From NCBI GenBank assembly GCA_903823665.1, contig CAIJTR010000177.1:1-35270 (forward strand): 35,270 bases of DNA. The letters are read 5' to 3'. Below the pieces are notes generated by a model that was not told the origin of the DNA, ran no database searches, and saw only the letters and a list, made by a program, of their open reading frames with translations. A program made the translations under genes and the position numbers. This document shows, piece by piece, positions 647 through 22,029 of this stretch (position 1 is its first letter; every line of letters starts with the position of its first letter). This DNA comes from an uncultured Rhodospirillales bacterium (GTDB lineage: Bacteria; Pseudomonadota; Alphaproteobacteria; Acetobacterales; Acetobacteraceae).

Positions 647-1261
647 ATGGATATGACCGGCGAACGCCGTATTCCCGCCCCACGCGCCCGCGTGTGGGAA
701 GCCCTCAACAACCCCGACGTGCTGAAGGCCTCGCTGCCGGGCTGTGAGGTGCTGGAAAAAGAGGCCGATGACAAGCTCAAGGCCGTGCTCGCCGTCAAAA
801 TCGGCCCCATCTCCGCCCGCTTCACCGGCAAGGTGCAGCTGCAAGATCTCGATCCACCGAACTCCTACCGAATCGAGGGTGAAGGCCAGGGCGGCGTTGC
901 TGGGTTTGCCAAGGGCGGTGCCAATGTGCGCCTCGCCGATGACGGCCCGGCCGCGACACTCCTCAGCTACGACGTCAAAGCCCAGGTCGGCGGCAAAATC
1001 GCCCAGCTCGGCGCACGCCTGATCGATGCCAGCGCCAAGCAGATGGCCGACGCGTTCTTCGACAATTTCTCCAACGCCGTCGCCAGCGCCGAACCCGCCG
1101 CCGATGGCCACGCAGCCCCGATGCACGCACCTGTCGCCGCCGCCAGCCTCAGCGTGTTCGATCTCATTCCATCCGAGATCTACGGCCTGCCGATCGTCGC
1201 CTGGATCGGCATTGTCATTTACACGCCGATCGCTCTCCTTCTGCTCAGCGCCTATCTGTGA
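647..1261 (+). CDS. coxG: CoxG family carbon monoxide dehydrogenase subunit G (SRPBCC, membrane-anchored)
   Basis: This 204-residue protein has an SRPBCC (START-like) fold at about residues 1-145: MTGERRIPAPRARVWEAL, PGCEVLE, then VGGKIAQLGARLI at 114-126 and MADAFFDNF at 133-141. An Ala/Pro linker leads to one C-terminal membrane helix at about 181-202. In Oligotropha carboxidovorans CoxG is thought to recruit the CoxD/CoxE complex to the cytoplasmic membrane and help dock CO dehydrogenase. The C-terminal anchor seen here fits that. An AAGGAG-like site precedes the ATG. The stop overlaps the GTG start of coxD, so the two are translationally coupled. The family assignment is secure. Whether the client enzyme is CO dehydrogenase or another xanthine-oxidase-family hydroxylase is not, because no coxMSL genes are present. 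Confidence 0.9.
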   Translation: MDMTGERRIPAPRARVWEALNNPDVLKASLPGCEVLEKEADDKLKAVLAVKIGPISARFTGKVQLQDLDPPNSYRIEGEGQGGVAGFAKGGANVRLADDGPAATLLSYDVKAQVGGKIAQLGARLIDASAKQMADAFFDNFSNAVASAEPAADGHAAPMHAPVAAASLSVFDLIPSEIYGLPIVAWIGIVIYTPIALLLLSAYL

Positions 1262-2160
1262 AGCTGCCTCAGTCAGTCGCTGAAACAGCGGCATTGCTCG
1301 CAGAAGGTGGCTATGTTGCCGATCACGCGCTGGCCACCACGGTGTTCCTCGCCCTCTCCATGCAGCGTCCGCTGTTTCTGGAGGGCGAGCCCGGCACCGG
1401 CAAAACCGAAATCGCCAAGGTGCTGGCCGAAGGTCTCGGCCGCCGTCTTGTGCGCTTGCAATGCTATGACGGCCTAGACCTCGCCGCCGCCGCCTATGAA
1501 TGGGATCACGCCCGCCAGCTGATGGCCATCCGTCTCGCCGAAGCCTCCGGCGAAGCAGGTGTCATCGACATTTATGCCCGCCAGTTCCTGCAATCGCGTC
1601 CGCTGCTCTCCGCCATCGACCCCGACCAGCCGCCCGCCGTGCTGCTGATCGACGAGCTCGACCGTGCCGATGAGCCGTTCGAGGCATTCCTGCTCGAAGT
1701 CCTCGCCGACTTCCAGCTCACCATCCCGGAATATGGCACCGTTCGCGCCGCCACGCCCCCGGTGGTGATCCTGACCTCAAACCGCACCCGCGAAGTGCAT
1801 GACGCCATCCGCAGGCGCTGCCTCTATCAATGGGTCGATTACCCCACCGCCACCCGCGAGCGCGAAATCCTCGCCCGCAAGGCCCCGGGCATCGCCGAAA
1901 AGCTCTCCGCCGAAATCGTCGCCTTCGTCCAAAAGCTGCGCGGCGAAGACCTGTTCAAACTCCCCGGCGTCGCCGAAACCATCGACTGGGCCGGTGCCCT
2001 CAAGCATCTCGACCAAAACGAGTTGGCCCCCGGAGCTGTGGACGAAACCCTCGGCGTGCTGCTGAAATATCAAGACGATATCGCCAAAATCAAAGGTGCC
2101 GAAGCAGCCCGACTGGTCAGCGAGGCGAAATCCATCGCAACGCCGCCGCCGCCGGTATGA
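1258..2160 (+). CDS. coxD: MoxR-family AAA+ ATPase, CoxD-like
   Basis: The product is 300 residues and starts at a GTG that overlaps the coxG stop (GTGA). Walker A is GEPGTGKT at 43-50, Walker B is VLLIDELDR at 128-136, sensor 1 is TSN at 173-175, and an Arg-finger-like RRR lies at 185-187. These place it in the MoxR AAA+ clade. Oligotropha CoxD is a membrane-associated ATPase-chaperone needed to insert the sulfur and copper of the [CuSMoO2] centre of CO dehydrogenase. Here it is followed directly by its usual VWA partner CoxE. Alternative clients are related molybdenum hydroxylases, since such AAA/VWA pairs also accompany uncharacterised xanthine-dehydrogenase homologues. Confidence 0.9.
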   Translation: MKLPQSVAETAALLAEGGYVADHALATTVFLALSMQRPLFLEGEPGTGKTEIAKVLAEGLGRRLVRLQCYDGLDLAAAAYEWDHARQLMAIRLAEASGEAGVIDIYARQFLQSRPLLSAIDPDQPPAVLLIDELDRADEPFEAFLLEVLADFQLTIPEYGTVRAATPPVVILTSNRTREVHDAIRRRCLYQWVDYPTATREREILARKAPGIAEKLSAEIVAFVQKLRGEDLFKLPGVAETIDWAGALKHLDQNELAPGAVDETLGVLLKYQDDIAKIKGAEAARLVSEAKSIATPPPPV

Positions 2161-3350
2161 CGGGCACCCTCCCCACCAACATCATGCACTTCGCCCGGCT
2201 GCTCCGCCGGGCCGGGCTGCCGGTGGGGCCTGCTGATATGCTGGCGGCGCAACAGGCCATCGGCCTCGTCACCATCGGCGACAAAATCCAGGTCCAGTCG
2301 GCACTCCGCACCACTTTGGTGCACCGGCACGAGCACGAGGATCTGTTCGACCACGCCTTCTCCCTCTACTGGCGCGACCCGGAGGCCGCCCGCTACGCCC
2401 AGGCAATGGCCGCCATCGACGGCCAAAAAGAACCGCCCCCGGAAAAAGCCCCACCCGGTGCCCGGCGCATCCAAGAGGCGTTCCGCACGCCCAAAGAGCA
2501 GCGCAAGCCGAACGAGGAACAGCCACCCGAAATCGAAGCGACGATGACGGTCTCAGACCGTGAACGCCTGCAAACGATGGATTTCGAGGCCATGTCCGCC
2601 GCCGAAATCGCCAACGCCAAGGCCGAAATCCGAAGGCTCTCTCTTCCGCTCGACGCCAAACGCACCCGCCGCTTGCGCCCTGACCCCACAGGCAGCCGCA
2701 CCGATTTGCGCGCCACCCTTCGCAAATCGCTGCGCAAAGGCGGCGAGCTCACCGAAATCGCCCGTTCTCGCCGTGTCACCCGCCCGCCGCCGCTCGTCGT
2801 CCTATGCGACATCAGCGGCAGCATGAGCCGCTACGCACAAATTCTGCTGCACTTCCTGCACGCTGTGGCCAATGACCGCGACCGTGTCTCCACCTTCCTG
2901 TTCGGCACCCGCCTGTCGAACATCACTCGCCAGCTCCGCGCGCGTGATCCGGAAGTGGCGTTCCAGATGGTCTCCCACGCCGTGCCGGATTGGTCCGGCG
3001 GAACCCGTATCGGCGAAGCACTGGCTGAGTTCAACCAAATTTGGTCCCGCCGCGTTTTGGGCCAAGGTGCCGTCGTCCTGCTCGTCACTGACGGCCTCGA
3101 CCGAGACGGTGCGGCCGGTCTGTCCGAGAACATGGAACGCCTGCACAAATCCTGCTCACGGCTGGTATGGCTGAACCCGCTGTTGCGCTGGGACGGCTTC
3201 GCCCCCAAATCCCAAGGCATTCGTGCAATGCTGCCGCATGTGGACGAGTTCCGCACCATCCACAATCTGGCCAGCCTGCGCTCACTCGTTGAAAGCCTGT
3301 CCCGCGCCGCATCCCCGCGCGATATGGACCGTTGGAGGAACGCCGCATGA
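2157..3350 (+). CDS. coxE: VWA domain-containing protein, CoxE-like
   Basis: The chosen ATG at 2157 overlaps the coxD stop (ATGA) and gives 397 residues. The frame is open further upstream, but that stretch is Arg/Pro-rich noise inside coxD. The N-terminal half is helical and charged (about 1-205, with a Pro/Glu/Lys-rich segment at 88-125). The C-terminal half is a von Willebrand A domain with a complete MIDAS: DISGSMS at 218-224, Thr283 in SGGTR, and Asp312 in LVTDG. CoxE proteins pair with CoxD-type AAA+ ATPases, and VWA/MoxR pairs act as metal-enzyme chaperones. The next gene begins inside its stop codon. The family is very sure; the exact client is inferred. Confidence 0.9.
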   Translation: MTGTLPTNIMHFARLLRRAGLPVGPADMLAAQQAIGLVTIGDKIQVQSALRTTLVHRHEHEDLFDHAFSLYWRDPEAARYAQAMAAIDGQKEPPPEKAPPGARRIQEAFRTPKEQRKPNEEQPPEIEATMTVSDRERLQTMDFEAMSAAEIANAKAEIRRLSLPLDAKRTRRLRPDPTGSRTDLRATLRKSLRKGGELTEIARSRRVTRPPPLVVLCDISGSMSRYAQILLHFLHAVANDRDRVSTFLFGTRLSNITRQLRARDPEVAFQMVSHAVPDWSGGTRIGEALAEFNQIWSRRVLGQGAVVLLVTDGLDRDGAAGLSENMERLHKSCSRLVWLNPLLRWDGFAPKSQGIRAMLPHVDEFRTIHNLASLRSLVESLSRAASPRDMDRWRNAA

Positions 3351-3667
3351 GCGACACAGCCGACATTCTGGCAACCGCCGCCGCCTGGAGGCACGAAGGC
3401 GAAGACGTCGCACTCGCCACCGTCACCCAAACCTGGGGCAGTTCCCCCCGCCCCGCCGGCAGCCAACTCGCCATCACCCGCTCCGGCAAAATGGCAGGCT
3501 CCGTCAGCGGCGGCTGCATCGAAGGGGCCGTGGCCGACATCGGCCTCGAAGTGCTGAACACCGGCATCCCCCGCCTGATGGATTTCGGCATCACCGACGA
3601 ACGCGCCTGGGAAGTCGGCCTCGCCTGCGGCGGCAAGCTCAAAGTGTTCGTGGAAAAGCTGGCATGA
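3347..3667 (+). CDS. XdhC N-terminal domain protein (small half of a split XdhC/CoxF-I)
   Basis: This 106-residue protein starts at the ATG at 3347, overlaps the coxE stop (ATGA), and has GGAGG upstream. It carries only the XdhC_CoxI N-terminal domain: GSSPRPAGSQ at 31-40, GSVSGGCIEG at 51-60 with Cys57, and GLACGG at 91-96 with Cys94. XdhC proteins bind Mo cofactor, protect it during sulfuration and hand it to xanthine-dehydrogenase-type enzymes. The Rossmann-type C-terminal domain is a separate downstream gene that overlaps it by four bases, so the two products probably form one functional unit. Split XdhC pairs are known in cox-type clusters, so this is unlikely to be a frameshift. The ATGA junction supports two genuine genes. 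Confidence 0.88.
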   Translation: MSDTADILATAAAWRHEGEDVALATVTQTWGSSPRPAGSQLAITRSGKMAGSVSGGCIEGAVADIGLEVLNTGIPRLMDFGITDERAWEVGLACGGKLKVFVEKLA

Positions 3668-4347
3668 CCCCCGAAACCCTTGCGGCCCTCACCGAAGCTC
3701 GCGCCGCCAAGCGCCCGGTGGTGCTGGCGACGCATCTCGCTGACGGCGCGCAACAACTCCTGCCCGATCCCGCCGCCCCAGAAGCACTGAACACCGCGGC
3801 CCTGCGCGCGTTGGATCGTGACGAAAGCGGCACCGTCACCATCGATGGTACCGAATGGTTCCTCCACGCCTACGCGCCCCCGGTCCGCCTCGTCATCGTC
3901 GGTGCCGTCCATATCGCGCAATCCCTCGTCCCAATGGCCGCCCATCTCGGCCTCTCCGTCATCGTCGTCGATCCGCGCCGCAGCTTTGCCACCGAGGAGC
4001 GTTTTCCCAACGTCACCCTGATGGACGACTGGCCCGATGACGCGATGGACAAAATCGCGCCGGACAGCCGCACCGCCATCATCACCCTCACCCACGACCC
4101 CAAACTCGACGACCCCGCACTCGACCGCGCGCTTCGGTCTGATGCGTTCTACATCGGCTCCCTCGGCAGCCGGAAAACCCACGCCAATCGCCTTCAGCGC
4201 CTGCGCGATCTCGGCCATGACGACAACACGCTGGCCCGCATCCGTGGGCCCGTCGGCCTGAACATCGGGGCTGTCACTGCGCCCGAAATCGCCGCCTCCA
4301 TCCTCGCCGAATTCATCGCCGTCCGCCGCAACGCCGCCCCAAAATGA
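3664..4347 (+). CDS. XdhC family protein, Rossmann C-terminal domain (large half of split XdhC)
   Basis: The product is 227 residues starting at an ATG that overlaps the previous stop. About 70 residues of less typical sequence are followed by the XdhC Rossmann domain. Its nucleotide-binding-like loop is GAVHIAQ at 80-86, where many relatives have GAGHVGQ. Next come VVDPRRSFATEERFP at 101-115, GSLGSRKTHANR at 165-176, and GLNIGAVTAPEIAASILAE at 198-216. The last is a family signature usually written GLDIGARTPEEIA. The protein probably works with the small XdhC protein in Mo-cofactor maturation and delivery. The next gene starts inside its stop codon (ATGA at 4344). Confidence in the family is high. 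Confidence 0.88.
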   Translation: MTPETLAALTEARAAKRPVVLATHLADGAQQLLPDPAAPEALNTAALRALDRDESGTVTIDGTEWFLHAYAPPVRLVIVGAVHIAQSLVPMAAHLGLSVIVVDPRRSFATEERFPNVTLMDDWPDDAMDKIAPDSRTAIITLTHDPKLDDPALDRALRSDAFYIGSLGSRKTHANRLQRLRDLGHDDNTLARIRGPVGLNIGAVTAPEIAASILAEFIAVRRNAAPK

Positions 4348-5972
4348 TCTTCGGCCTCATCCCGCTCCACGAAGCAGAAGGCGCACTTCTCGCGCATTCC
4401 CGCAGAGCCGGCGGGAGAATGCTAAAGAAAGGCACCACGCTCGATGCCGCCGCAATCGCGGCCCTGCGTGAAGCCGGCATCACCGAAATCATCGCAGCCC
4501 GCCTCGCCCCCGGCGACCTGTTGGAAAACCAGGCCGCCGATCGCCTCGCCGATCATCTGCAAGCCCCGAACCTGCGCCGCAACGCCGCAGCCACTGGCCG
4601 CGTCAATCTCATTGCCGAACAGTCCGGTCTGCTCCGTGTCGATGCTGCCGCCATCGACCGCATCAACCTCACCCACGAATCCCTCACCGTCGCCACCTTG
4701 CCCGATTACGCCGTCGTCGCCCCCGGTGACATGATCGCCACCATCAAAGTCATCCCGTTCGCCATCGAAGCCGAAATCCAGTCCCGCGCCGAAGCAGCAA
4801 GCCAGGGCGGTGCCTTCGCGCTGCACCCGTTCAGGCCGCTCAAAGTCGGCCTCGTCCTCAGCGAAATCGCCACGCTGAAAGACAGCATCGTCACCGGCAC
4901 CATCGAGGTCACCCGCAACCGCGTCGAAGGCTTCGGCGGAACCCTCCTGCCACCCCGTCGTTGCCCGCATGACGAGACAGCCATCGCCGCCGCCCTCACC
5001 CAGCTGCAAACCGAAGGTGCGGATATTCTCCTCATCTCCGGTGCTTCCGCCGTGGTGGACCGCCAGGATATCGGCCCCTCCGCCATCATCCGCGCCGGCG
5101 GCGAAATTCGCCATTTCGGCATGCCGGTTGATCCCGGAAACCTCATCTGCCTCGGCCGCATCGGTCCCATTCCCGCCCTCGTGCTCCCCGGCTGCGCCCG
5201 TTCGCCGAAGCTGAATGGCATCGACTGGGTGCTCGCCCGGCTGTTCGCGGGGCTCGACGTCACGCCCGAGCAAATCATGCGTATGGGCGTCGGCGGCCTG
5301 TTGAAAGACACCCAGGTTCGCCCGCTCCCCCGCGCCCGCGCCACCGCAAAACCGCGCATCGCCGCCATCGTTCTCGCCGCCGGTGCCTCCAGCCGCATGG
5401 CCCCGCGCCACAAACTCCTGATCCCAGGCCCAGACGGCCGCACGATGGTGGCTCGCGTCGTGGACCACCTGCTCGCCAGCACCGCCAGACCCATCATCGT
5501 CGTCACTGGCCACCGTGAACCCGAAATCCGCGCCGCCCTCACCGGCCGCGACGTGCAATTCGTCCACGCCGAACGTCACGCCGATGGCCTCGCCGAAAGC
5601 CTCAAATCCGGCCTGTCCGCCCTGCCCGAGGACGCCGCAGCCACGCTCATCTGCCTAGGCGACATGCCGCTCGTGGCATCGACTGCCATCGAGCGCATCA
5701 TCGCCGCCTATGATCCAGACGAAGGCCGCAACATCGTCGTCCCCACCCACGACGGAAACTTCGGCAACCCCGTTCTATGGGACCGCCGCCACGTCCCCGA
5801 CATGATGCAACTCGCAGGCGACCAGGGCGCCCGCCTCCTCCTCAAACGCCACGCCGAAGAAATCGCCGAAGTGCCGATGGACGACGACGCCGTGCTGCGC
5901 GATTTCGACACGCCGGAAAGTCTCACCCATCTGGCGGGAAACCTCGGCTGGGCAATCGCATCATGCCCATGA
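4344..5972 (+). CDS. MoeA-like molybdopterin-binding / MocA-type nucleotidyltransferase fusion
   Basis: This 542-residue protein has two parts. Residues 1 to about 330 resemble a molybdopterin-binding MoCF_biosynth region: LLISGASAVVDRQDIGPSAI at 229-248 and LPGCARSPKLNGIDWVLARL at 281-300. Residues from about 338 form a MobA/MocA-like NTP transferase with the nucleotide loop LAAGASSRM at 344-352, the Lys of HKLL at 357, and the metal-binding GDMP at 439-442. MocA makes molybdopterin cytosine dinucleotide, the cofactor form of CO dehydrogenase and related hydroxylases, which fits the cassette. Annotation pipelines often call this architecture molybdopterin-binding/glycosyltransferase family 2. 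It closes the six-gene operon. The domain reading is sure; CTP rather than GTP preference is inferred from context. Confidence 0.87.
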   Translation: MIFGLIPLHEAEGALLAHSRRAGGRMLKKGTTLDAAAIAALREAGITEIIAARLAPGDLLENQAADRLADHLQAPNLRRNAAATGRVNLIAEQSGLLRVDAAAIDRINLTHESLTVATLPDYAVVAPGDMIATIKVIPFAIEAEIQSRAEAASQGGAFALHPFRPLKVGLVLSEIATLKDSIVTGTIEVTRNRVEGFGGTLLPPRRCPHDETAIAAALTQLQTEGADILLISGASAVVDRQDIGPSAIIRAGGEIRHFGMPVDPGNLICLGRIGPIPALVLPGCARSPKLNGIDWVLARLFAGLDVTPEQIMRMGVGGLLKDTQVRPLPRARATAKPRIAAIVLAAGASSRMAPRHKLLIPGPDGRTMVARVVDHLLASTARPIIVVTGHREPEIRAALTGRDVQFVHAERHADGLAESLKSGLSALPEDAAATLICLGDMPLVASTAIERIIAAYDPDEGRNIVVPTHDGNFGNPVLWDRRHVPDMMQLAGDQGARLLLKRHAEEIAEVPMDDDAVLRDFDTPESLTHLAGNLGWAIASCP

Positions 5973-6750: not shown

Positions 6751-8415
6751 TTAACGCGCGCGCCATTGCTCGATCCACGACGTAATGAAGCCGTAACGCT
6801 GTGGGTTATATATCCCCGTCATCCATTTCGGCGTAATCAGCCCGGTCGCGGGGAAATACAACGGAATTTCCGGCAAATCATACACATACTGGCCCTGAAT
6901 GGTTTTTGACATCTCCCGCCGCTTCTCCGGATCAAGCTCCGCACGCGCCGAAATAATCGCCGCATCCACCGCCGGATTGCGCCAATCCATGTAGTTCAGG
7001 CCGGAATACGAGTTTTCCGCCGACGGAATATACAGCGTGTGGAAATAGATCAGCGGCACATAATCCAGCGCCATATCAGTCTGGAACATCACAATACCGT
7101 TGAAATTCCGCTTGCGCAGCGTCTCGCCGAACATCTCCCGTGCCGGCTGGTTCTTGATCACGAGCTCGATGCCAATAGCCTTCAGCTCGGTTTGTATCAC
7201 CTGCTCCACCAGCTCCCGCGCATGGTTGCCGGCGGTCGTGGTCAAATCGAGCGAAAACTTCTCACCCTCCGGCGACCGCATAATGCCGTCCGGCCCTGGT
7301 TTGAAGCCCATTTCCTCAAGCATGAACCTTGCCTTCTTCGGATCATAAGGCCATTTCTTCGTATCGGTATCATAACCAAACTGGGTGGGATGAACGTAGC
7401 TGTCCGCCACCTGAAACCGGTCCGCGAAAAGCCGGTTCACAATGGTGCCACGATCAATCGCCATCGCAATAATCTGGCGTATGCGCCGCTGGCTCAGAAA
7501 CTTGTTGTCCAAATTGAGCGACAAATGCTCATAGCTCGCAACCGATGGAATGAAATTGAAATCAAACCGGTCCGCAGTCGTCTTTGACATTGAAATAATC
7601 TGGTCCAGCGTCAGGCCAAGATTGCCGCTTGCCACCGTATCAACGTCACCGGCCAATATATTTGCCTGCAAAGCCGCCGTGTTCTCCACCAGCCGCATCT
7701 GCACCTTTTTGAAGTAAGGCACCGGGCCTTTCCAATACTCATTCGGCAGCAAAATCACCATCCCACTGCGCTGATAATCCGCCACGCGGTATGGCCCAAG
7801 CCATAAGCCAGGGTTATTCGCCTGCGTGTTGAACGCTGATTTCTGGCCGTAATCGAGCGGGCTGGTCGCCTTGGCGAAAATCGGCGCTTCGATGTGTTCG
7901 GGCAAAACCGCAGCGCCAGACATCGAGTTTGCAACGCGCTGATAATCATATTGGGTCGATTTCAGCACGAACTTTACGTGCAACGGATCCACCGCCACCA
8001 CGCTCTCAATCACCTGCGGCGGATTGAACGTGCTGCTCACCTGAAACGAAAACGCGAAATCCTTCGCCGTCACCTGCACCCCATCGCCCCAGAACAGATC
8101 GGGCTTCAGCGTGTAGGTCACCTCCATGCCATCGGTGCCGTCATCGCGCTTGATAAGCTTCGCACCGCCGTTCTGCAGCGTGGGAATTTCGGTGCAGAGC
8201 AGGCAAATCACCGAACCATCGGAAGCATACCCAACCATCGGCCGGTTCGCTGCCAGCAGCACCGTGTCCTTGATGCTCGTATCGGTGATGTAAGGGTGCA
8301 GATCAGGCGGAAACTGCACCATCCCAATCGTCAACGTGTTGCGCGGCGTCTGCGCCTGCGCAGGCGCAATCGCAGCCAACAGGGTCGCACCCACAAGGAA
8401 AATGCCAGCTCGCAT
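6751..8415 (-). CDS. ABC transporter substrate-binding protein, family 5 (peptide/nickel/oligosaccharide type)
   Basis: The chosen start, the ATG at 8415, gives 554 residues and a clean Sec signal peptide (MRAGIFLVGATLLAAIAPAQA, about 1-21). A start 36 bases upstream would only add a charged tail. The mature part is a large periplasmic SBP_bac_5 protein with DLHPYITDTSIKD near the N-terminus, then YTLKPDLFWGDGVQVTAKDF, LSQRRIRQIIAMAIDRGTI, and a C-terminal IPLYFPATGLITPKW. Such proteins deliver peptides, opines, glycosides or metals to an ABC permease. No permease or ATPase gene lies beside it, so it is an orphan here. It diverges from the sulfoquinovose-type operon, with 121 bp between starts. 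That makes a role in catching a glycoside substrate possible but unproven. Confidence 0.87.
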   Translation of the reverse strand: MRAGIFLVGATLLAAIAPAQAQTPRNTLTIGMVQFPPDLHPYITDTSIKDTVLLAANRPMVGYASDGSVICLLCTEIPTLQNGGAKLIKRDDGTDGMEVTYTLKPDLFWGDGVQVTAKDFAFSFQVSSTFNPPQVIESVVAVDPLHVKFVLKSTQYDYQRVANSMSGAAVLPEHIEAPIFAKATSPLDYGQKSAFNTQANNPGLWLGPYRVADYQRSGMVILLPNEYWKGPVPYFKKVQMRLVENTAALQANILAGDVDTVASGNLGLTLDQIISMSKTTADRFDFNFIPSVASYEHLSLNLDNKFLSQRRIRQIIAMAIDRGTIVNRLFADRFQVADSYVHPTQFGYDTDTKKWPYDPKKARFMLEEMGFKPGPDGIMRSPEGEKFSLDLTTTAGNHARELVEQVIQTELKAIGIELVIKNQPAREMFGETLRKRNFNGIVMFQTDMALDYVPLIYFHTLYIPSAENSYSGLNYMDWRNPAVDAAIISARAELDPEKRREMSKTIQGQYVYDLPEIPLYFPATGLITPKWMTGIYNPQRYGFITSWIEQWRAR

Positions 8416-8536
8416 CACAGCCCCCACATCGTCTGAGCGCCGAGAGTGCAAGACAAAATGCCTCCCCGCAACTCACTGAATTGACGCAGACAGCGCAACA
8501 CCGGATGGTCACCGGACGGAGAGAGGACGCAGAAAG
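8416..8536. promoter_or_regulatory. shared divergent promoter region of the binding-protein gene and the mutarotase-SDR-GH31 operon
   Basis: This is the only non-coding gap between the divergent binding-protein gene and the three-gene operon, so both promoters and any operator should be here. I see a short direct repeat (ACCGGA twice, separated by five bases, at about 8502-8518) and a purine-rich GGAGAGAGG stretch upstream of the 8537 ATG. I could not pick convincing -35/-10 boxes. No regulator gene adjoins it. Confidence 0.4.
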
Positions 8537-9382
8537 ATGAAGATCACATCGGGTCAGGCAGAATTGGTGCTCGCACCGGATATGGGCGGCTCGATCATCT
8601 CATGGACGGTGGATGGCCGCCCGGTGTTCCGCCCCGCCAATCCCGACGCGACCACGTCGCGCATGCAGTCATGCTACCCGCTGGTGCCGTTCTCCAACCG
8701 CGTCGCCAATGGTCGTTTCACCTTTGCCGGACACGAATACAAGCTGCCCATTCTGCTCGGCCCCTGGGCCATTCACGGTGCCGGCTGGCAATTGCCCTGG
8801 ATGATCCAGGACCACTCCATGCTGCTGCGCTACCCCGGCGGCGAATTATGGCCCTTCGCCTTCGACGCCGAACAGCACTTCGACCTCACGCCCCACAGCC
8901 TCGCCGTCACCATGCGGATCACCAACCGCCACAACGCACCCGTCCCCGCCGCACTCGGCCTGCATCCGTTCTACCCCCGCGACCCTGAAACCCGCCTGCA
9001 ACTGCGCGCTGCCGGGGTGTGGATGTCCGACGAAAACAAAATCCCGGAGCGTCTCGAAGCCGTCCCCGCCGACTGGAACTTCAGCGAGGAACGCCCGCTC
9101 GGTGATGCCAACATCGACCACTGCTTCGCCGGATGGGATGGCACCTACGCCATCACCTGGCCGCAACGCCGAGAGCGCCTTGTCGTCACCGCCACCAACC
9201 CCTTGCGTCACCTCGTCGTCTATGTCCCGCGCGGTGAGAACTTCTTTGCCGTCGAGCCCGTCTCGAACATGAATGACGGCCTCAACCACATGAACACGAC
9301 CGACGATCACGGCATGCGCATCCTGGCCCCCGGCGAATCGCTCGAAGGCCGCATCAGCATGGTTCTGGAACGCACTGAATGA
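8537..9382 (+). CDS. aldose 1-epimerase family mutarotase (probable sulfoquinovose mutarotase)
   Basis: This 281-residue protein has a galactose-mutarotase-like beta-sandwich. Visible family sites are FSNRVANGRF at 52-61 (Arg55 binds sugar), IHGAGWQLPW at 79-88 (His80), GLHPFY at 141-146 (His143, probable catalytic acid), and VEPVSNMNDGLN at 239-250 (Glu240, probable catalytic base). The enzyme interconverts alpha and beta anomers of a free aldose. It is first in an operon with an NAD-type SDR and a sulfoquinovosidase-like GH31, and its stop overlaps the SDR start (ATGA at 9379). By analogy with sulfo-Entner-Doudoroff loci, it should equilibrate sulfoquinovose released by the GH31 for a dehydrogenase that prefers one anomer. 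The fold is sure; the sugar is inferred from neighbours. Confidence 0.88.
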   Translation: MKITSGQAELVLAPDMGGSIISWTVDGRPVFRPANPDATTSRMQSCYPLVPFSNRVANGRFTFAGHEYKLPILLGPWAIHGAGWQLPWMIQDHSMLLRYPGGELWPFAFDAEQHFDLTPHSLAVTMRITNRHNAPVPAALGLHPFYPRDPETRLQLRAAGVWMSDENKIPERLEAVPADWNFSEERPLGDANIDHCFAGWDGTYAITWPQRRERLVVTATNPLRHLVVYVPRGENFFAVEPVSNMNDGLNHMNTTDDHGMRILAPGESLEGRISMVLERTE

Positions 9383-10143
9383 CGAGCCCGTATGACAGCG
9401 TCCGCTACCACTCCCTCGCCGGGCGCTGCGTTGTCATCACCGGCGGAGCCTCCGGCATCGGGGCGGACATGGTGCGCGGCTTTGCCCAGCAAGGCGCGCG
9501 GGTGGCCTTCCTCGATCTCGACCACGATGCCGGCATGGCACTCGCCGCCGAAGTACCGGACACGCGCTTCATCTCGTGTGATGTGACCGATATCGAGGCT
9601 CTGCGCATAGCCCTCGGCCGCATCGAGGACAAAGCCCCCATCGACGCGCTCATCAACAACGCCGCCCGCGACCAGCGCATGGTGATGAGCGAGATCGAGC
9701 CAGATCAGTGGCGGCATATGCTCGCCGTCAATCTCGACCATCAGTTCTTCGCAAGCCAAGAAGTCGCCCGCTTCATGACCACGCGCGGCCAAGGCTGCAT
9801 CATCATGATGGGCTCCATCTCCTGGATGCGCGGCAGGCCCGGCATGATCGGCTACACCACCGCCAAAGCCGCCATCAACGGCATGACGCGAACCATGGCA
9901 CGCGAACTCGGCCCGTCCGGCATCCGCGTCAACTGCATCGTCCCCGGGGCCATTCGCACGCCGCGGCAAGATGCACTTTGGCACTCGCCAGCCGCCAGCC
10001 AGAAATTCATTGATGATCAGGCGCTGAAATTCCGCCTCGACGCCACCCACGTCACCCGCATGGCACTCTTCCTCGCGTCTGACGAAGCGGCAGGCTGCAC
10101 CGGGGCCAATTTCATCGTCGATGCCGGATTGACGCTGAACTGA
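9379..10143 (+). CDS. SDR family NAD(P)-dependent oxidoreductase (probable sulfoquinovose 1-dehydrogenase)
   Basis: This 254-residue classical short-chain dehydrogenase has the cofactor motif TGGASGIG at 21-28, Asp46 at the end of the second strand (LDLD, favouring NAD+ over NADP+), NNAA at 93-96, and the catalytic set Ser146, Tyr159 and Lys163 (YTTAK). The C-terminus LASDEAAGCTGANFIVDAG is typical. Related enzymes oxidise C1 of aldoses to lactones. In the sulfo-Entner-Doudoroff pathway of Pseudomonas putida SQ1 and Rhizobium, an NAD-dependent SDR oxidises sulfoquinovose. This gene overlaps the mutarotase by four bases and the GH31 by one base (TGATG), so all three are probably made together. 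The family is certain; the substrate is inferred. Confidence 0.88.
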   Translation: MTSPYDSVRYHSLAGRCVVITGGASGIGADMVRGFAQQGARVAFLDLDHDAGMALAAEVPDTRFISCDVTDIEALRIALGRIEDKAPIDALINNAARDQRMVMSEIEPDQWRHMLAVNLDHQFFASQEVARFMTTRGQGCIIMMGSISWMRGRPGMIGYTTAKAAINGMTRTMARELGPSGIRVNCIVPGAIRTPRQDALWHSPAASQKFIDDQALKFRLDATHVTRMALFLASDEAAGCTGANFIVDAGLTLN

Positions 10144-12125
10144 TGCACATTCTTCCCACCCCGGATGGCTTCGAACTTTGGCTCGAATCCCGCCTCCTCG
10201 CCCGCCACTCCGCCGCCCGGCCCTTCGCCGAAATCGGCATCGGTCACGCCCACATGGCCATGTATCGCGGCAATTTCGACATTACCGATGAAGTCACAAC
10301 CCGCCACGCCCTCACCCACGCCAAAATCGACGGCACAAGCGTAAGCCTCAGTAGCGCCCAAGGCACCGAGCCGCTTCTCGTCCTCGAACTGGCGCACAAC
10401 GCCCTCATCGTCAGCAGCGCCGCCCCCTCGCTCAATCGCTTCTGGTTCCACCTCCACGCCGAGCCGTCCGAGCACATCTGGGGCTGCGGCGAGCAAATGT
10501 CATATTTCGACCTCAGGGGCCGCCGCTTCCCGCTCTGGACCAGCGAGCCCGGTGTCGGCCGAGACAAATCCACCGCCATCACCAAGCGCGCTGACGCCGA
10601 AGGCCGCGCGGGCGGCGACTACCACACCACCAACTACCCGCAACCCACCTTCCTCACCTCGCGCAAACTCGCCGTCCACCTGCAGACCACCGCCTACAGC
10701 GTGTTCGACTTCACGGCACCCGACGAACACGTCCTGGAAGTCTGGGCCGTGCCCGACCGCCTGGAATTCTTTGCGGCCAATAACGTCCCGGATCTCGTCA
10801 CTCAACTCAGCACCCGCTTCGGCCGCCCCCCGCGCCTGCCGGACTGGATCATGTCCGGCGCCGTCATCGGCCTGAAGGAAGGCCTGCGCAGCTTCGAGCG
10901 CCTCGAAACATTCCTCGCCGCCGGCACCATCGTCTCAGCCCTCTGGTGCGAGGACTGGTCCGGCGTGCGCCAAACCTCCTTCGGCACCCGCCTGTTCTGG
11001 GACTGGCACTGGAACCCCGCCCGCTACCCCGATCTCCCCGCCCGCATCAAGGCGCTGTCCGAGCGCGGCATCCGCTTCATGGGCTACACCAACCCCTATC
11101 TCTGCACCGACGGCACGCAATTCCCCGAAGCCGAAGCCTTAGGCCTCCTCGCCCGCAACGCCCACGGCGAAACCTACCATGTCGATTTCGGCGAATTCGA
11201 TTGCGGCATCGTCGATTTCACCCTCCCAGCCGCGCGCCAATGGTTCGCCGAAACGATCATCCAGCGTGAAATGCTCGACCTCGGCATGTCCGGCTGGATG
11301 GCCGATTTCGGCGAGTATTTGCCGGTGGACGCCCATCTGCACGGCGGCGACGCCATGCTGCTGCACAACGCCTGGCCCACCATTTGGGCCGAGGTCAATG
11401 CCACCGCCACCGCCAATCACCCCGAAGCCGTGTTCTTCATGCGAGCAGGCTTCACCGGCGTTCAAAAGCACAACCGCCTGCTCTGGGCCGGCGATCAATG
11501 CGTCGATTTCTCCCGCCATGACGGCATCGGCACGGTCATCACCGGCGCACTCTCATCCGGCCTGCTCGGCACCCCGTACCATCACAGCGACATCGGCGGC
11601 TACACCAGCCTCTTCGGCCTCACCCGCACGCCCGAACTGATGCAGCGCTGGACCGAGATGGCAGCCTTCACCCCCGTCATGCGCACCCATGAAGGCAATC
11701 GCCCGCGCGATAACCTGCAATTCGACGAAGACGCCCTCGTGCTGGCCCATTTCGCCCGCTTCACCCGCCTGCACGCAGCACTTCTGCCGCTGCTAAAACG
11801 CCTTGCTGACGAAGCAGTGGCAACCGGCCTGCCCATGCAACGCCCGCTCTTCCTGCATTTCCCGGATGACGAAAGCCTCTATGGCGAGCAAACCACCTAC
11901 CTGCTCGGCCCAGACCTGCTGATCGCCCCAGTGTTGGAAGCGGGGCGGAATGAGTGGCGCGTGAAGCTCCCCCCAGGGTGTAACTGGGTGCATCTCTGGT
12001 CTGGCAAAACCCAACAGGGCGGCCAAACCATCACCATCCCTGCCCCCATCGGCCAACCGCCAGTGTTCTGGCGAGAGGGCAGCCAAGACGAGGCGCTGTT
12101 TCGCGCCCTTCCGTCGCCCGGTTAA
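10143..12125 (+). CDS. GH31 sulfoquinovosidase (YihQ/SmoI-like)
   Basis: This 660-residue GH31 alpha-glycosidase resembles E. coli YihQ along its whole length (SEHIWGCGEQMSYFDLRG near 110, GYTNPYLCTDG, FFMRAG, MRTHEGNRP near 513). The nucleophile is Asp388 in WMADFGEY and the acid/base is Asp451 in WAGDQ. Residues at the sulfonate-recognition positions are Lys245, Glu270, Arg283, Trp286 and Tyr487. That is the KERWY set described for Agrobacterium-type sulfoquinovosidases; E. coli has QQRWY. The enzyme should cleave sulfoquinovosyl glycerol or sulfolipid to free sulfoquinovose. It has no signal peptide, so it is likely cytoplasmic. The 3' end overlaps the converging MFS gene at a TTAA. Specificity rests on recalled sequences and residue identity, but the match is unusually specific. 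Confidence 0.9.
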   Translation: MHILPTPDGFELWLESRLLARHSAARPFAEIGIGHAHMAMYRGNFDITDEVTTRHALTHAKIDGTSVSLSSAQGTEPLLVLELAHNALIVSSAAPSLNRFWFHLHAEPSEHIWGCGEQMSYFDLRGRRFPLWTSEPGVGRDKSTAITKRADAEGRAGGDYHTTNYPQPTFLTSRKLAVHLQTTAYSVFDFTAPDEHVLEVWAVPDRLEFFAANNVPDLVTQLSTRFGRPPRLPDWIMSGAVIGLKEGLRSFERLETFLAAGTIVSALWCEDWSGVRQTSFGTRLFWDWHWNPARYPDLPARIKALSERGIRFMGYTNPYLCTDGTQFPEAEALGLLARNAHGETYHVDFGEFDCGIVDFTLPAARQWFAETIIQREMLDLGMSGWMADFGEYLPVDAHLHGGDAMLLHNAWPTIWAEVNATATANHPEAVFFMRAGFTGVQKHNRLLWAGDQCVDFSRHDGIGTVITGALSSGLLGTPYHHSDIGGYTSLFGLTRTPELMQRWTEMAAFTPVMRTHEGNRPRDNLQFDEDALVLAHFARFTRLHAALLPLLKRLADEAVATGLPMQRPLFLHFPDDESLYGEQTTYLLGPDLLIAPVLEAGRNEWRVKLPPGCNWVHLWSGKTQQGGQTITIPAPIGQPPVFWREGSQDEALFRALPSPG

Positions 12126-13477
12126 TCCCGCAACCGCGTCAGCACCACCCCCATCGCCGTCAAGGCCACGCAAGATGCAATGGCAAGCGCCCATTCAGCG
12201 CCACCAGCGACACCGCCGCCGATCCCAAGCCCGAACATCACCGCCACCAATGCCGCACCCAGCGTCTGACCCAGCAGCCGTGCGGTGGAAAGCACGCCAC
12301 TGCCCGCACCTGAGCGTTCGCGCGGCGTAGAGGCCATCAGCAGCCGGTTGTTCGGCGCCTGAAACAGCGCAAACCCACCGCCGCACATCGCCGCCCGCCA
12401 CATGAAATCCCACCACGCCGGATTTTCCGGCAACAGTACCAGCAACGCCAATCCGGCACCGAGGAGGAACAAGCCAAGACCGCACAAAGTCCCCGCCGAG
12501 ATCCGATCAGACAGTCGTCCAGCAAACGGGGCGACAAAACAGGCCGCCACCGGCCAAGGCGTGATCAGCAAGCCGACCTCAATCGTCGATGCCCCGTTCG
12601 CCTGCAGCAGAAACGGCATCGAAACCAGCGCCATCGTGGTCGCCACAAACGCGCAGACCGACGTCATCACGCTGAGTGAAAACGCCGGAATGGCAAACAA
12701 TTCCACCGGCAGCATTGGGGCCAAAAGGCGATACTGTCGGCGCACAAAATAAATGCCAATCACCACGGCACCCGCCAGTTCCGCGGCAATCACCCCATAG
12801 GACGCGCCATGCGCAACGCCGCTGATGGCAGCAATCCCCAGCCCGAACATCCCCGCATTCAACAGCGCACTCGCCCAGTCAAACCGATGCTTGGCCAGCG
12901 GCGTCAGCGGCAATGTCTGAGTAAGCCCAAGCGCCAGCACACCGACGGGAATGTTGATCAGAAACAACCAAGGCCACGTCGATATCGCCAGAATGCCCGA
13001 CGCAATCGAAGGCCCCGCAGCGCCGGAGAGCGACACCACAAGCCCCGTGAGCCCAATCGCCCGACCAAGCTCAGAGCGCGGAAAAATAAAGCGCATCAGC
13101 GCGGGATTGACGCTCATCAATCCCGCAGCGCCAAAGCCCTGCGCCAGCCGGGCAAAAATCAACATCGGCATGGTGGTCGAGCACGCACATCCAACCGACG
13201 CTATGGTGAACAGCCCAATGCCCCAGGCATAGACACGCCGATAGCCATAAATGTCGCCAAGGGCTGCGAACGGGATGAGCGAGACCATCACTGCGAGTTG
13301 GTAGCCGTTGACCACCCAAATGCTCTCAGCAGGCGTGACTGCCAAACTATGCGCAATATTCGGCAAAGCAATGTTCGCAATAGAACCGTCAAGCACCGCC
13401 ATGATCACGACCAAACTCTGGGCAATCACCGCCCAACGTCGCTGCGTAATCGGCAGCCCGTCCATCGTTTGACTCAT
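12122..13477 (-). CDS. MFS transporter, DHA2 (14-TM, EmrB/QacA-like) family
   Basis: The product is 451 residues from the ATG at 13477. A GAGGG ribosome site lies nine bases upstream, whereas the ATG at 13486 has that site abutting it. About 14 hydrophobic segments are visible. Motifs include VLDGSIANIALPNIA near the N-terminus (DHA2 motif D), GDIYGYRRVY (motif A, loop 2-3), and a second loop GRLSDRISAG. DHA2 proteins usually export drugs or anionic compounds by proton antiport. Its end overlaps the GH31 end on the other strand by four bases. It could export a sulfonated end product or an unrelated toxin. The opposite orientation argues against simple co-transcription with the sugar operon. 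Confidence 0.88.
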   Translation of the reverse strand: MSQTMDGLPITQRRWAVIAQSLVVIMAVLDGSIANIALPNIAHSLAVTPAESIWVVNGYQLAVMVSLIPFAALGDIYGYRRVYAWGIGLFTIASVGCACSTTMPMLIFARLAQGFGAAGLMSVNPALMRFIFPRSELGRAIGLTGLVVSLSGAAGPSIASGILAISTWPWLFLINIPVGVLALGLTQTLPLTPLAKHRFDWASALLNAGMFGLGIAAISGVAHGASYGVIAAELAGAVVIGIYFVRRQYRLLAPMLPVELFAIPAFSLSVMTSVCAFVATTMALVSMPFLLQANGASTIEVGLLITPWPVAACFVAPFAGRLSDRISAGTLCGLGLFLLGAGLALLVLLPENPAWWDFMWRAAMCGGGFALFQAPNNRLLMASTPRERSGAGSGVLSTARLLGQTLGAALVAVMFGLGIGGGVAGGAEWALAIASCVALTAMGVVLTRLRD

Positions 13478-13486
13478 CAGGCACAT

Positions 13487-21504: not shown

Positions 21505-22029
21505 ATGAACGCCATCAGCAAGCCCATCCTGGCCGCACCGCTGGAAGCGATGCTGGCCGCTATCGCCCTTGCCGCCCGCGCTGATTTCAGTGAGCGCCAC
21601 CTCGCCGTGGCCGCCGCCATCGCGCCCTATCTCGGCACCGAGAACCTCCTGGCAGGGCGGGATTGTCCCTGTAATCCGCATCGCTACAGCCGCCATCTGC
21701 TGCACAACAACGAAGAAGCCGGATACGCCGTCGTCGCCATTGTCTGGACGCCCGGGCAAATGTCCCCGGTCCACGGCCACCGCACATGGTGCGCCCTTGG
21801 CGTGCATCGCGGCTGGCTGGCCGAGACCTATTTCACCCGCACCGGCACCGAAATCCTGCCCACCCGTTGCACTCAACGGACCCCGGGCATGACCAGCCAC
21901 GCCACCGCAGATCGGGACGCCATCCATCGCCTCGCCAATCTTGGTACGCAGGAAGCCGTCTCAATCCACGTCTACGGCGTGGCATTCGATGATTTCGGTG
22001 ACGGCGTGAACGAGGTTTACGCAATGTGA
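21505..22029 (+). CDS. cysteine dioxygenase-type thiol dioxygenase (3-mercaptopropionate dioxygenase-like)
   Basis: This 174-residue cupin is of the CDO_I family. Iron ligands are visible as His90 and His92 (VHGH) and probably His141. YSRHLLH at 61-67 is the carboxylate-binding region. SIHVYG at 152-157 supplies the Ser153-His155-Tyr157 outer-sphere set known from thiol dioxygenases. Cys96, in WCALG, stands about where bacterial 3-mercaptopropionate dioxygenases usually have Gly. The enzyme adds O2 to a thiol to give a sulfinate, from cysteine or 3-mercaptopropionate. The AGGA ribosome site overlaps the end of the GntR gene, so both are one transcript. Which thiol is used cannot be decided by eye. 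Confidence 0.85.
   Translation: MNAISKPILAAPLEAMLAAIALAARADFSERHLAVAAAIAPYLGTENLLAGRDCPCNPHRYSRHLLHNNEEAGYAVVAIVWTPGQMSPVHGHRTWCALGVHRGWLAETYFTRTGTEILPTRCTQRTPGMTSHATADRDAIHRLANLGTQEAVSIHVYGVAFDDFGDGVNEVYAM

Follow-up and report, generated by a model that had tools for sequence, protein, structure and literature searches.

Is a locus that carries only the opening steps in the breakdown of sulfoquinovose (SQ), a sulfosugar of plants and algae, one part of a pathway split over its genome, or a minimal arrangement in its own right? The question is raised by a three-gene operon at positions 8537–12125 of a 35,270-nucleotide contig (CAIJTR010000177.1) from an uncultured Rhodospirillales bacterium of the Acetobacteraceae. 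The whole contig, here called the window, is contig C177 of its genome (4.54 Mb, 211 contigs, 97.69% complete). An original prediction had read the operon as a mutarotase, an NAD-type short-chain dehydrogenase/reductase (SDR) and a GH31 sulfoquinovosidase (SQase), and had offered either a split locus or a new minimal arrangement. We computed gene identities, key residues and their conservation, and we failed to find the canonical lower genes of the sulfo-Entner-Doudoroff (sulfo-ED) pathway. The reading that we hold with good confidence is that of an SQ-entry operon without the canonical lower half, whose product would be broken down by recruited enzymes. Below, G numbers denote genomes of the family Acetobacteraceae, L numbers fetched loci and C numbers contigs.

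In the proposed pathway, the GH31 enzyme, acting in the cytoplasm, would hydrolyse alpha-SQ glycosides, for example SQ-glycerol into SQ and glycerol, the mutarotase would equilibrate the SQ anomers, and the SDR would use NAD+ to oxidise SQ to 6-sulfogluconolactone, which would open to sulfogluconate (SG). The module would be kept in Acetobacteraceae without the canonical lower half, that is, SG dehydratase and 2-keto-3,6-dideoxy-6-sulfogluconate (KDSG) aldolase, and breakdown would most likely be completed by sugar-acid enzymes encoded elsewhere and non-orthologous to those of sulfo-ED. The activities, their direction, the cell location and everything beyond sulfogluconolactone are what we infer here.

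The operon encodes a predicted SQase, SQ dehydrogenase and mutarotase

Three open reading frames on the forward strand (8537–9382, 9379–10143 and 10143–12125) were confirmed, together with the overlaps claimed for them, ATGA at 9379–9382 and TGATG at 10141–10145; Pfam assigned them to Aldose_epim, adh_short_C2 and Glyco_hydro_31, respectively. The GH31 protein (P0003, 10143–12125) scored 864.5 bits against the NCBIfam model PRK10426 (cut-off 553), which is titled 'alpha-glucosidase' and which we take to be the YihQ model. Its closest solved proteins were 5ohy and 5ohs (921 and 919 bits), the latter presumably the Agrobacterium enzyme, with two further structures at 720 and 681 bits and E. coli YihQ (5aed) at 670 bits; all remaining solved GH31 enzymes scored 159 bits or less. 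By alignment, the residues K245, E270, R283, W286, Y487, D388 and D451 are as claimed, and their counterparts in YihQ of E. coli K-12 are, in the same order, Q262, Q288, R301, W304, Y508, D405 and D472. We take QQRWY (YihQ) and KERWY (Agrobacterium type) as names of the sulfonate-recognition motif. With both aspartates added, KERWYDD was present in 100 of 102 aligned GH31 rows, namely the window enzyme and 99 homologue rows (seven of which come from a second copy of a contig). The remaining two rows were YihQ (QQRWYDD) and a second GH31 of the window's genome, on C15, 29% identical to the window enzyme (AAKVFDD). Motif count and tree covered matches of at least 500 aligned columns, which left out L061, L062, L063 and L064.

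The tree that the original prediction had called for (FastTree, 95 rows, seven second-copy loci dropped, rooted on the C15 enzyme with its very long branch) placed the window enzyme among its relatives' KERWY enzymes, away from YihQ. It grouped with three SQases of loci bearing an SQ 1-dehydrogenase (SQDH) with support 99, inside a wider group of 16 SQases (14 family genomes plus L066 and L071) with moderate support (84); the Acidocella SQase fell in a separate clade. Pairwise dN/dS against seven relatives was 0.13–0.44, a rough estimate since dS was high. By family model, motif and tree, the protein is assigned as a KERWY-type sulfoquinovosidase.

The nearest solved protein to the SDR (P0002, 9379–10143) was sulfoquinovose 1-dehydrogenase 9gwu (296 bits; runner-up 219), and the SDR was 56% identical to the SQDH of P. 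putida (PpSQDH) and 68% identical to the SDR of a sulfo-ED locus on a rhizobial plasmid (L007). The available part of the PpSQDH report (PMC12133307) gives a catalytic set of Asn119-Ser147-Tyr160-Lys164, NAD binding by Asp45, SQ contacts at Asp99, Arg101 and Gln198, and a sulfonate pocket in which Arg152 acts directly and Arg154 via water; it also describes a strong preference for SQ over glucose-6-phosphate. All ten functional positions checked were identical in the window SDR. An XylB-like paralog in the same genome (C67), 49.6% identical to PpSQDH, kept eight of the ten, with Ile and Gln where PpSQDH has Arg152 and Arg154, so these two positions discriminate; in a second paralog (C102) they are Lys and Ala. 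Every SQase-linked SDR compared carries Arg152, and Arg154 is shared by most of them, the departures being N, M, V, I and, in the family genome G183, L. Pairwise dN/dS against seven relatives was 0.13–0.40, rough since dS was partly saturated, and suggests that the gene is maintained. In a quick SDR tree with many weak forks (five second-copy loci and eight further distant matches dropped), the family SDRs lay outside a clade (support 95) holding most alphaproteobacterial sulfo-ED SDRs. We conclude that the window SDR is a probable NAD-dependent SQ 1-dehydrogenase.

In the aldose-1-epimerase family protein (P0001, 8537–9382; PF01263, 144 bits), His80, His143 and Glu240 were located by motif. 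We take them as counterparts of His92, His162 and Glu254, the residues given for HsSQM in the available part of PMC5902678, so that a His/His/Glu catalytic set would be present. HsSQM is tolerant at C6, and a mutarotase gene alone would therefore not prove SQ as the substrate. Pairwise dN/dS against seven relatives was 0.22–0.78, again rough given the high dS. The protein is a probable SQ mutarotase. The earlier claim that the organism can release SQ and begin its oxidation thus finds support at the level of sequence, in the YihQ-family model, the KERWY motif and the SQDH contacts.

The SQ-entry module recurs in the Acetobacteraceae

An SQase was found in 17 of 200 family genomes, and in 13 of the 17 an SDR lies beside or near it (G000, G018, G164, G150, G103, G004, G098, G155, G198, G069, G105, G183 and G187). 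Only one of these 13 SQDH-bearing genomes, that of Acidocella facilis (G187), has both a KDSG aldolase and a dehydratase of the SG clade described below. The 12 aldolase-lacking genomes span seven genera. Mutarotase, SDR and GH31 follow one another in this order on one strand in nine of the 12 (the GH31 being cut by a contig end in two), and this recurrence makes the order more than chance. As to the remaining three, the mutarotase copy of G018 (L047:3560–4090) is a relic whose internal deletions remove the catalytic region, G004 has one gene between SDR and GH31, and in G183 the mutarotase stands behind an ATP-binding cassette (ABC) transporter cassette. The upper module looks maintained, not decaying.

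Neighbouring genes were clustered over 21 loci (the window, L047–L064, L066 and L068) with a crude gene caller, on loci often cut by contig ends. Genes common to at least three loci were the mutarotase, SDR, GH31, a major facilitator superfamily (MFS) permease, an ABC permease, a penicillin-amidase family gene, a family-5 solute-binding protein (SBP5), a Deg-type protease and an SbmA-like ABC protein. No dehydratase or aldolase was among them, within the limits of the crude calls and cut loci.

The canonical lower half of sulfo-ED was not found

We asked whether the missing genes lie elsewhere. Queries were the proteins of the full sulfo-ED operon on the rhizobial plasmid (L007), and Burkholderia queries were also used. 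With both sets, no lactonase, dehydratase, aldolase or sulfolactaldehyde (SLA) dehydrogenase homologue was detected in the window, in agreement with the absence noted earlier, and the window held no SGL lactonase. The KDSG aldolase query gave 348 bits (64% identity) in G187, against no match above 132 bits in any of the remaining 16 SQase genomes. No close KDSG aldolase was found in the window's genome, the only match there being one on C44 (34%, 120 bits); other PF03328 members also occur in this genome.

Among 16 further genomes, the aldolase query scored 307–570 bits in ten and 117–133 bits in six, namely that of L066, a near relative of the window locus, and five Bradyrhizobium genomes. 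In Jiella flava, Jiella mangrovi and an Aurantimonas, the aldolase (67–70% identity) lies on a contig other than that of the SQ locus, and the search thus detects split loci. In two Janthinobacterium loci the aldolase lies just beyond the fetched stretch. The Jiella and Aurantimonas SQ loci (L096, L105 and L112) also carry a second gene of ~785–850 aa beside SQDH and SQase, GH31-like in two of the three by a weak match. Three Bradyrhizobium loci (L109, L119 and L123) carry a LacI regulator, an SQ-type ABC importer and a KERWY SQase; no SQDH or SQ monooxygenase was found within 10 kb of them, and no close KDSG aldolase in the genomes.

In a dehydratase tree of 53 sequences (matches of at least 480 aligned positions), the sulfo-ED SG dehydratases form one clade (SH-aLRT 99), in which G187 is the only one of the 17 SQase genomes with a row. 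The best homologue in the window's genome (C62, 59% identity) falls in a neighbouring clade of 11, together with a second Acidocella copy. It was rejected as an SG dehydratase orthologue, lying outside the SG clade and fitting the L-arabinonate dehydratase model better (1072 bits, against 922 for the rhizobial SG dehydratase), and its neighbours, an NAD-dependent epimerase-like and a calpain-like gene among them, are not sulfo-ED genes; it is a candidate for a possible promiscuous role. G105, G018 and G010 yielded dehydratase fragments, broken or split, whose length did not suffice for the tree; in a piecewise comparison all were closer to the non-SG clade.

The other steps were also searched for in the window's genome. 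The best SLA dehydrogenase matches reached 41% identity with the rhizobial enzyme and 46% with that of Burkholderia, within a large enzyme superfamily. One of three SGL-family genes, on C67 near the XylB-like SDR, shares 39% identity with the rhizobial lactonase. No close SmoC-type FMN-dependent SQ monooxygenase was found in this genome (best 27%, 63 bits); among the SQase genomes close copies occur solely in G010 and G004, G164 following at 40%.

The genome-wide search proposed in the original prediction therefore turned up neither an SG-clade dehydratase nor a close KDSG aldolase, and neither was seen in the remaining 11 family genomes that have an SQDH without the aldolase. With the lower half missing in 12 of 13 genomes, the evidence favours the minimal half of the original alternative, a truncated but conserved arrangement, over the split one.

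Possible fates of sulfogluconate

SG may be handled by recruited sugar-acid enzymes encoded elsewhere or be excreted, and of the two we favour recruitment. The available part of a report on the sulfofucose pathway (PMC12421959) describes a dehydratase of a different family, which indicates that the dehydratase step can be filled by another family. The HpaI/GarL-like aldolase match on C44 forms a pair (L042:5123–8240) with a gene of the galactarate/altronate-dehydratase family, beside an aquaporin Z. A C44-type pair stands side by side in all 22 examined SQase genomes without KDSG aldolase, Bradyrhizobium included. Of 11 genomes with KDSG aldolase, none showed the pair at the places examined; seven of these were examined at one to three weaker aldolase matches while four had no second match.

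Several observations weigh against the reading of an SQ-entry operon completed by recruited enzymes. In the SDR of G183, Leu replaces Arg154, and the second-shell C-terminal Gln260 of PpSQDH is Asn in the window SDR; the latter appears to be a conservative change and is not taken as defining SQDH. G004, which has the SQDH module, carries a SmoC-like gene on another contig (L175, C302; 71% identical to that of G010), so its SQ could take the SQ monooxygenase route. Adjoining the window operon, no obvious SQ importer or dedicated regulator was seen. For the recruited step there are candidates only, the C62 arabinonate-type dehydratase and the C44 pair, and seven of the 22 pair genomes, including G010 with its SQ monooxygenase genes at that place, have no SQDH match beside the SQase, which argues against a close tie. 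Finally, the window's genome is a 211-contig draft at 97.7% completeness in which a single absence is weak; the absence carries weight because it is repeated over 12 genomes.

An ordinary sulfo-ED pathway, with lower genes at an unlinked locus missed or split by the draft assembly, would have precedents in the Jiella and Aurantimonas genomes and room in the assembly of the window's genome. However, the search that found those aldolases detected none in the 12 SQDH-bearing family genomes besides G187, several of them at 96–100% completeness, and the SG dehydratase clade is missing from the same 12, which makes this explanation quite improbable. A non-sulfonated sugar as the substrate of GH31 and SDR is more improbable still. 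The SDR does score 302.7 bits on the NCBIfam D-xylose 1-dehydrogenase model, but this is below its cut-off of 400, and the sulfonate-binding residues are kept in both GH31 and SDR, whereas the paralogs in the same genome are without them. That the C44 pair itself is the lower half for SG would fit its tracking of KDSG aldolase absence and the membership of its aldolase in the Pfam family of KDSG aldolase. Yet the two groups of genomes are two distinct lineages, so that phylogeny is a confounder, and the counts cover SQase genomes only; these points, with the seven genomes lacking a neighbouring SQDH, led us to rate this explanation as improbable. Moreover, the pair resembles an ordinary galactarate route, and the dehydratase also occurs, at 74% identity, on a plasmid of Microvirga ossetica, a species that has SQase and SQDH on another plasmid.

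Incomplete oxidation, in which cells would live on glycerol from SQ-glycerol plus the NADH gained by oxidising SQ, and would release SG, is possible but doubtful. It would account for the missing dehydratase and aldolase in 12 of 13 SQDH-bearing genomes and is in keeping with the five Bradyrhizobium genomes, including the three with importer, regulator and SQase described above; in Burkholderia multivorans, glpK and a gene for glycerol-3-phosphate dehydrogenase belong to an SQ cluster, and this organism may therefore use the glycerol part. Against it, no dedicated SG exporter was identified, the neighbouring MFS gene being common in the family without an SQase, the gain of one NADH per SQ is small, and the portions of the SQ literature available to us yielded no mention of SG excretion. 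The more specific form of this idea, in which Acetobacteraceae and perhaps Bradyrhizobium oxidise SQ only to 6-deoxy-6-sulfogluconate and release it, living on glycerol and one NADH and supplying a cross-feeding product, we consider rather unlikely; if it held, a six-carbon sulfonate would become a cross-feeding product. Completion by recruited sugar-acid enzymes remains the reading that we prefer. The original identification of the operon stands, and the question is now less 'split or minimal' than which step comes after SG.

Transport and surroundings of the operon

Convergent to the operon lies an MFS permease gene (12122–13486, reverse strand; MFS_1), homologues of which adjoin the SQase in G000, G010, G150, G098, G155, G198, G105 and G004. 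It was rejected as an SQ-specific transporter, adjacency being insufficient: with at most eight candidates scored per genome, 145 of the 200 family genomes have a homologue, against 17 with an SQase. A role in import is possible, or it may be a bystander. In one genus (g11) the SQase–MFS pair is kept with either SQ monooxygenase genes (G010, L048:8103–12247) or mutarotase and SQDH (G105, L061/L063). Loci of the same type in G018, G183 and L066 carry a SmoF-like ABC cassette akin to that of the rhizobial SQ operon (solute-binding protein 58–60%, permease 72–75% identity), and no close MFS homologue lies beside these three; L066 has a different convergent MFS gene (27%) beside a HlyD-type gene.

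Upstream and divergent, a family-5 solute-binding protein (6751–8451, reverse strand; PF00496, 184 bits) probably starts at an ATG near 8415, and its N-terminus resembles a signal peptide by eye. G103 and L066 likewise have a homologue upstream of their SQ genes. By the listed frames, a gap at 8452–8536 separates it from the operon and is the likely site of a putative operon promoter. In three genomes of two genera, a penicillin amidase family gene lies directly upstream of the mutarotase (L054:3672–5918, L059:137–2521 and L064:3577–6456, typed by Pfam on the L059 copy).

In the rest of the window the scanned genes seem unrelated and mainly housekeeping. Those at 647–5972 (CoxG-like, MadB-type AAA ATPase, XdhC and MocA-like) resemble molybdenum hydroxylase accessory genes. 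At 21505–22029, after a GntR-type regulator, there is a gene of the cysteine dioxygenase type I family, possibly sulfur-related and unlinked to the operon.

Comparison with known systems

That Acetobacteraceae conserve an SQ-entry module lacking the known sequels points to a route, or an end product, that is undescribed, and SQase plus SQDH alone would be no safe basis for predicting a full sulfo-ED pathway. In the literature searched, no paper on SQ in Acetobacteraceae was found, and the available part of a review (PMC12890257) names no route of this kind; the SQ pathways described in the available parts of the sources have C3 or C2 sulfonates, or sulfite, as end products.

Like sulfo-ED loci, the window has an SQase, a mutarotase and an NAD-type SDR that is a probable SQ dehydrogenase; unlike them, it has no lactonase, SG dehydratase, KDSG aldolase, SLA dehydrogenase or TauE-type exporter. 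With the E. coli yih genes for sulfo-EMP it shares SQase and mutarotase, whereas the E. coli enzyme has QQRWY and the route, by annotation, runs through isomerase, kinase and aldolase instead of the predicted SDR oxidation. A KERWY SQase is common to the window and to sulfo-ASMO loci. In the sulfo-ASMO-type genome G010, the SQase has LLM-monooxygenase and aldo/keto-reductase genes as neighbours, together with an MFS gene homologous to that of the window, whereas in the window's genome the best SmoC match is the distant one at 27%. For Elstera, the available part of a 2026 ISME J report (PMC13372026) describes a partial sulfo-ED cluster with no obvious lactonase, suggests a non-canonical route and uses 13C labelling to show SQ carbon uptake for a related sequence variant. 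The Elstera litoralis locus (L068) has a dehydratase (84%) and an aldolase (72%), whereas the window's genome has neither. The window operon and, by that report, the Elstera cluster are alike in being alphaproteobacterial SQ clusters that do without a standard step.

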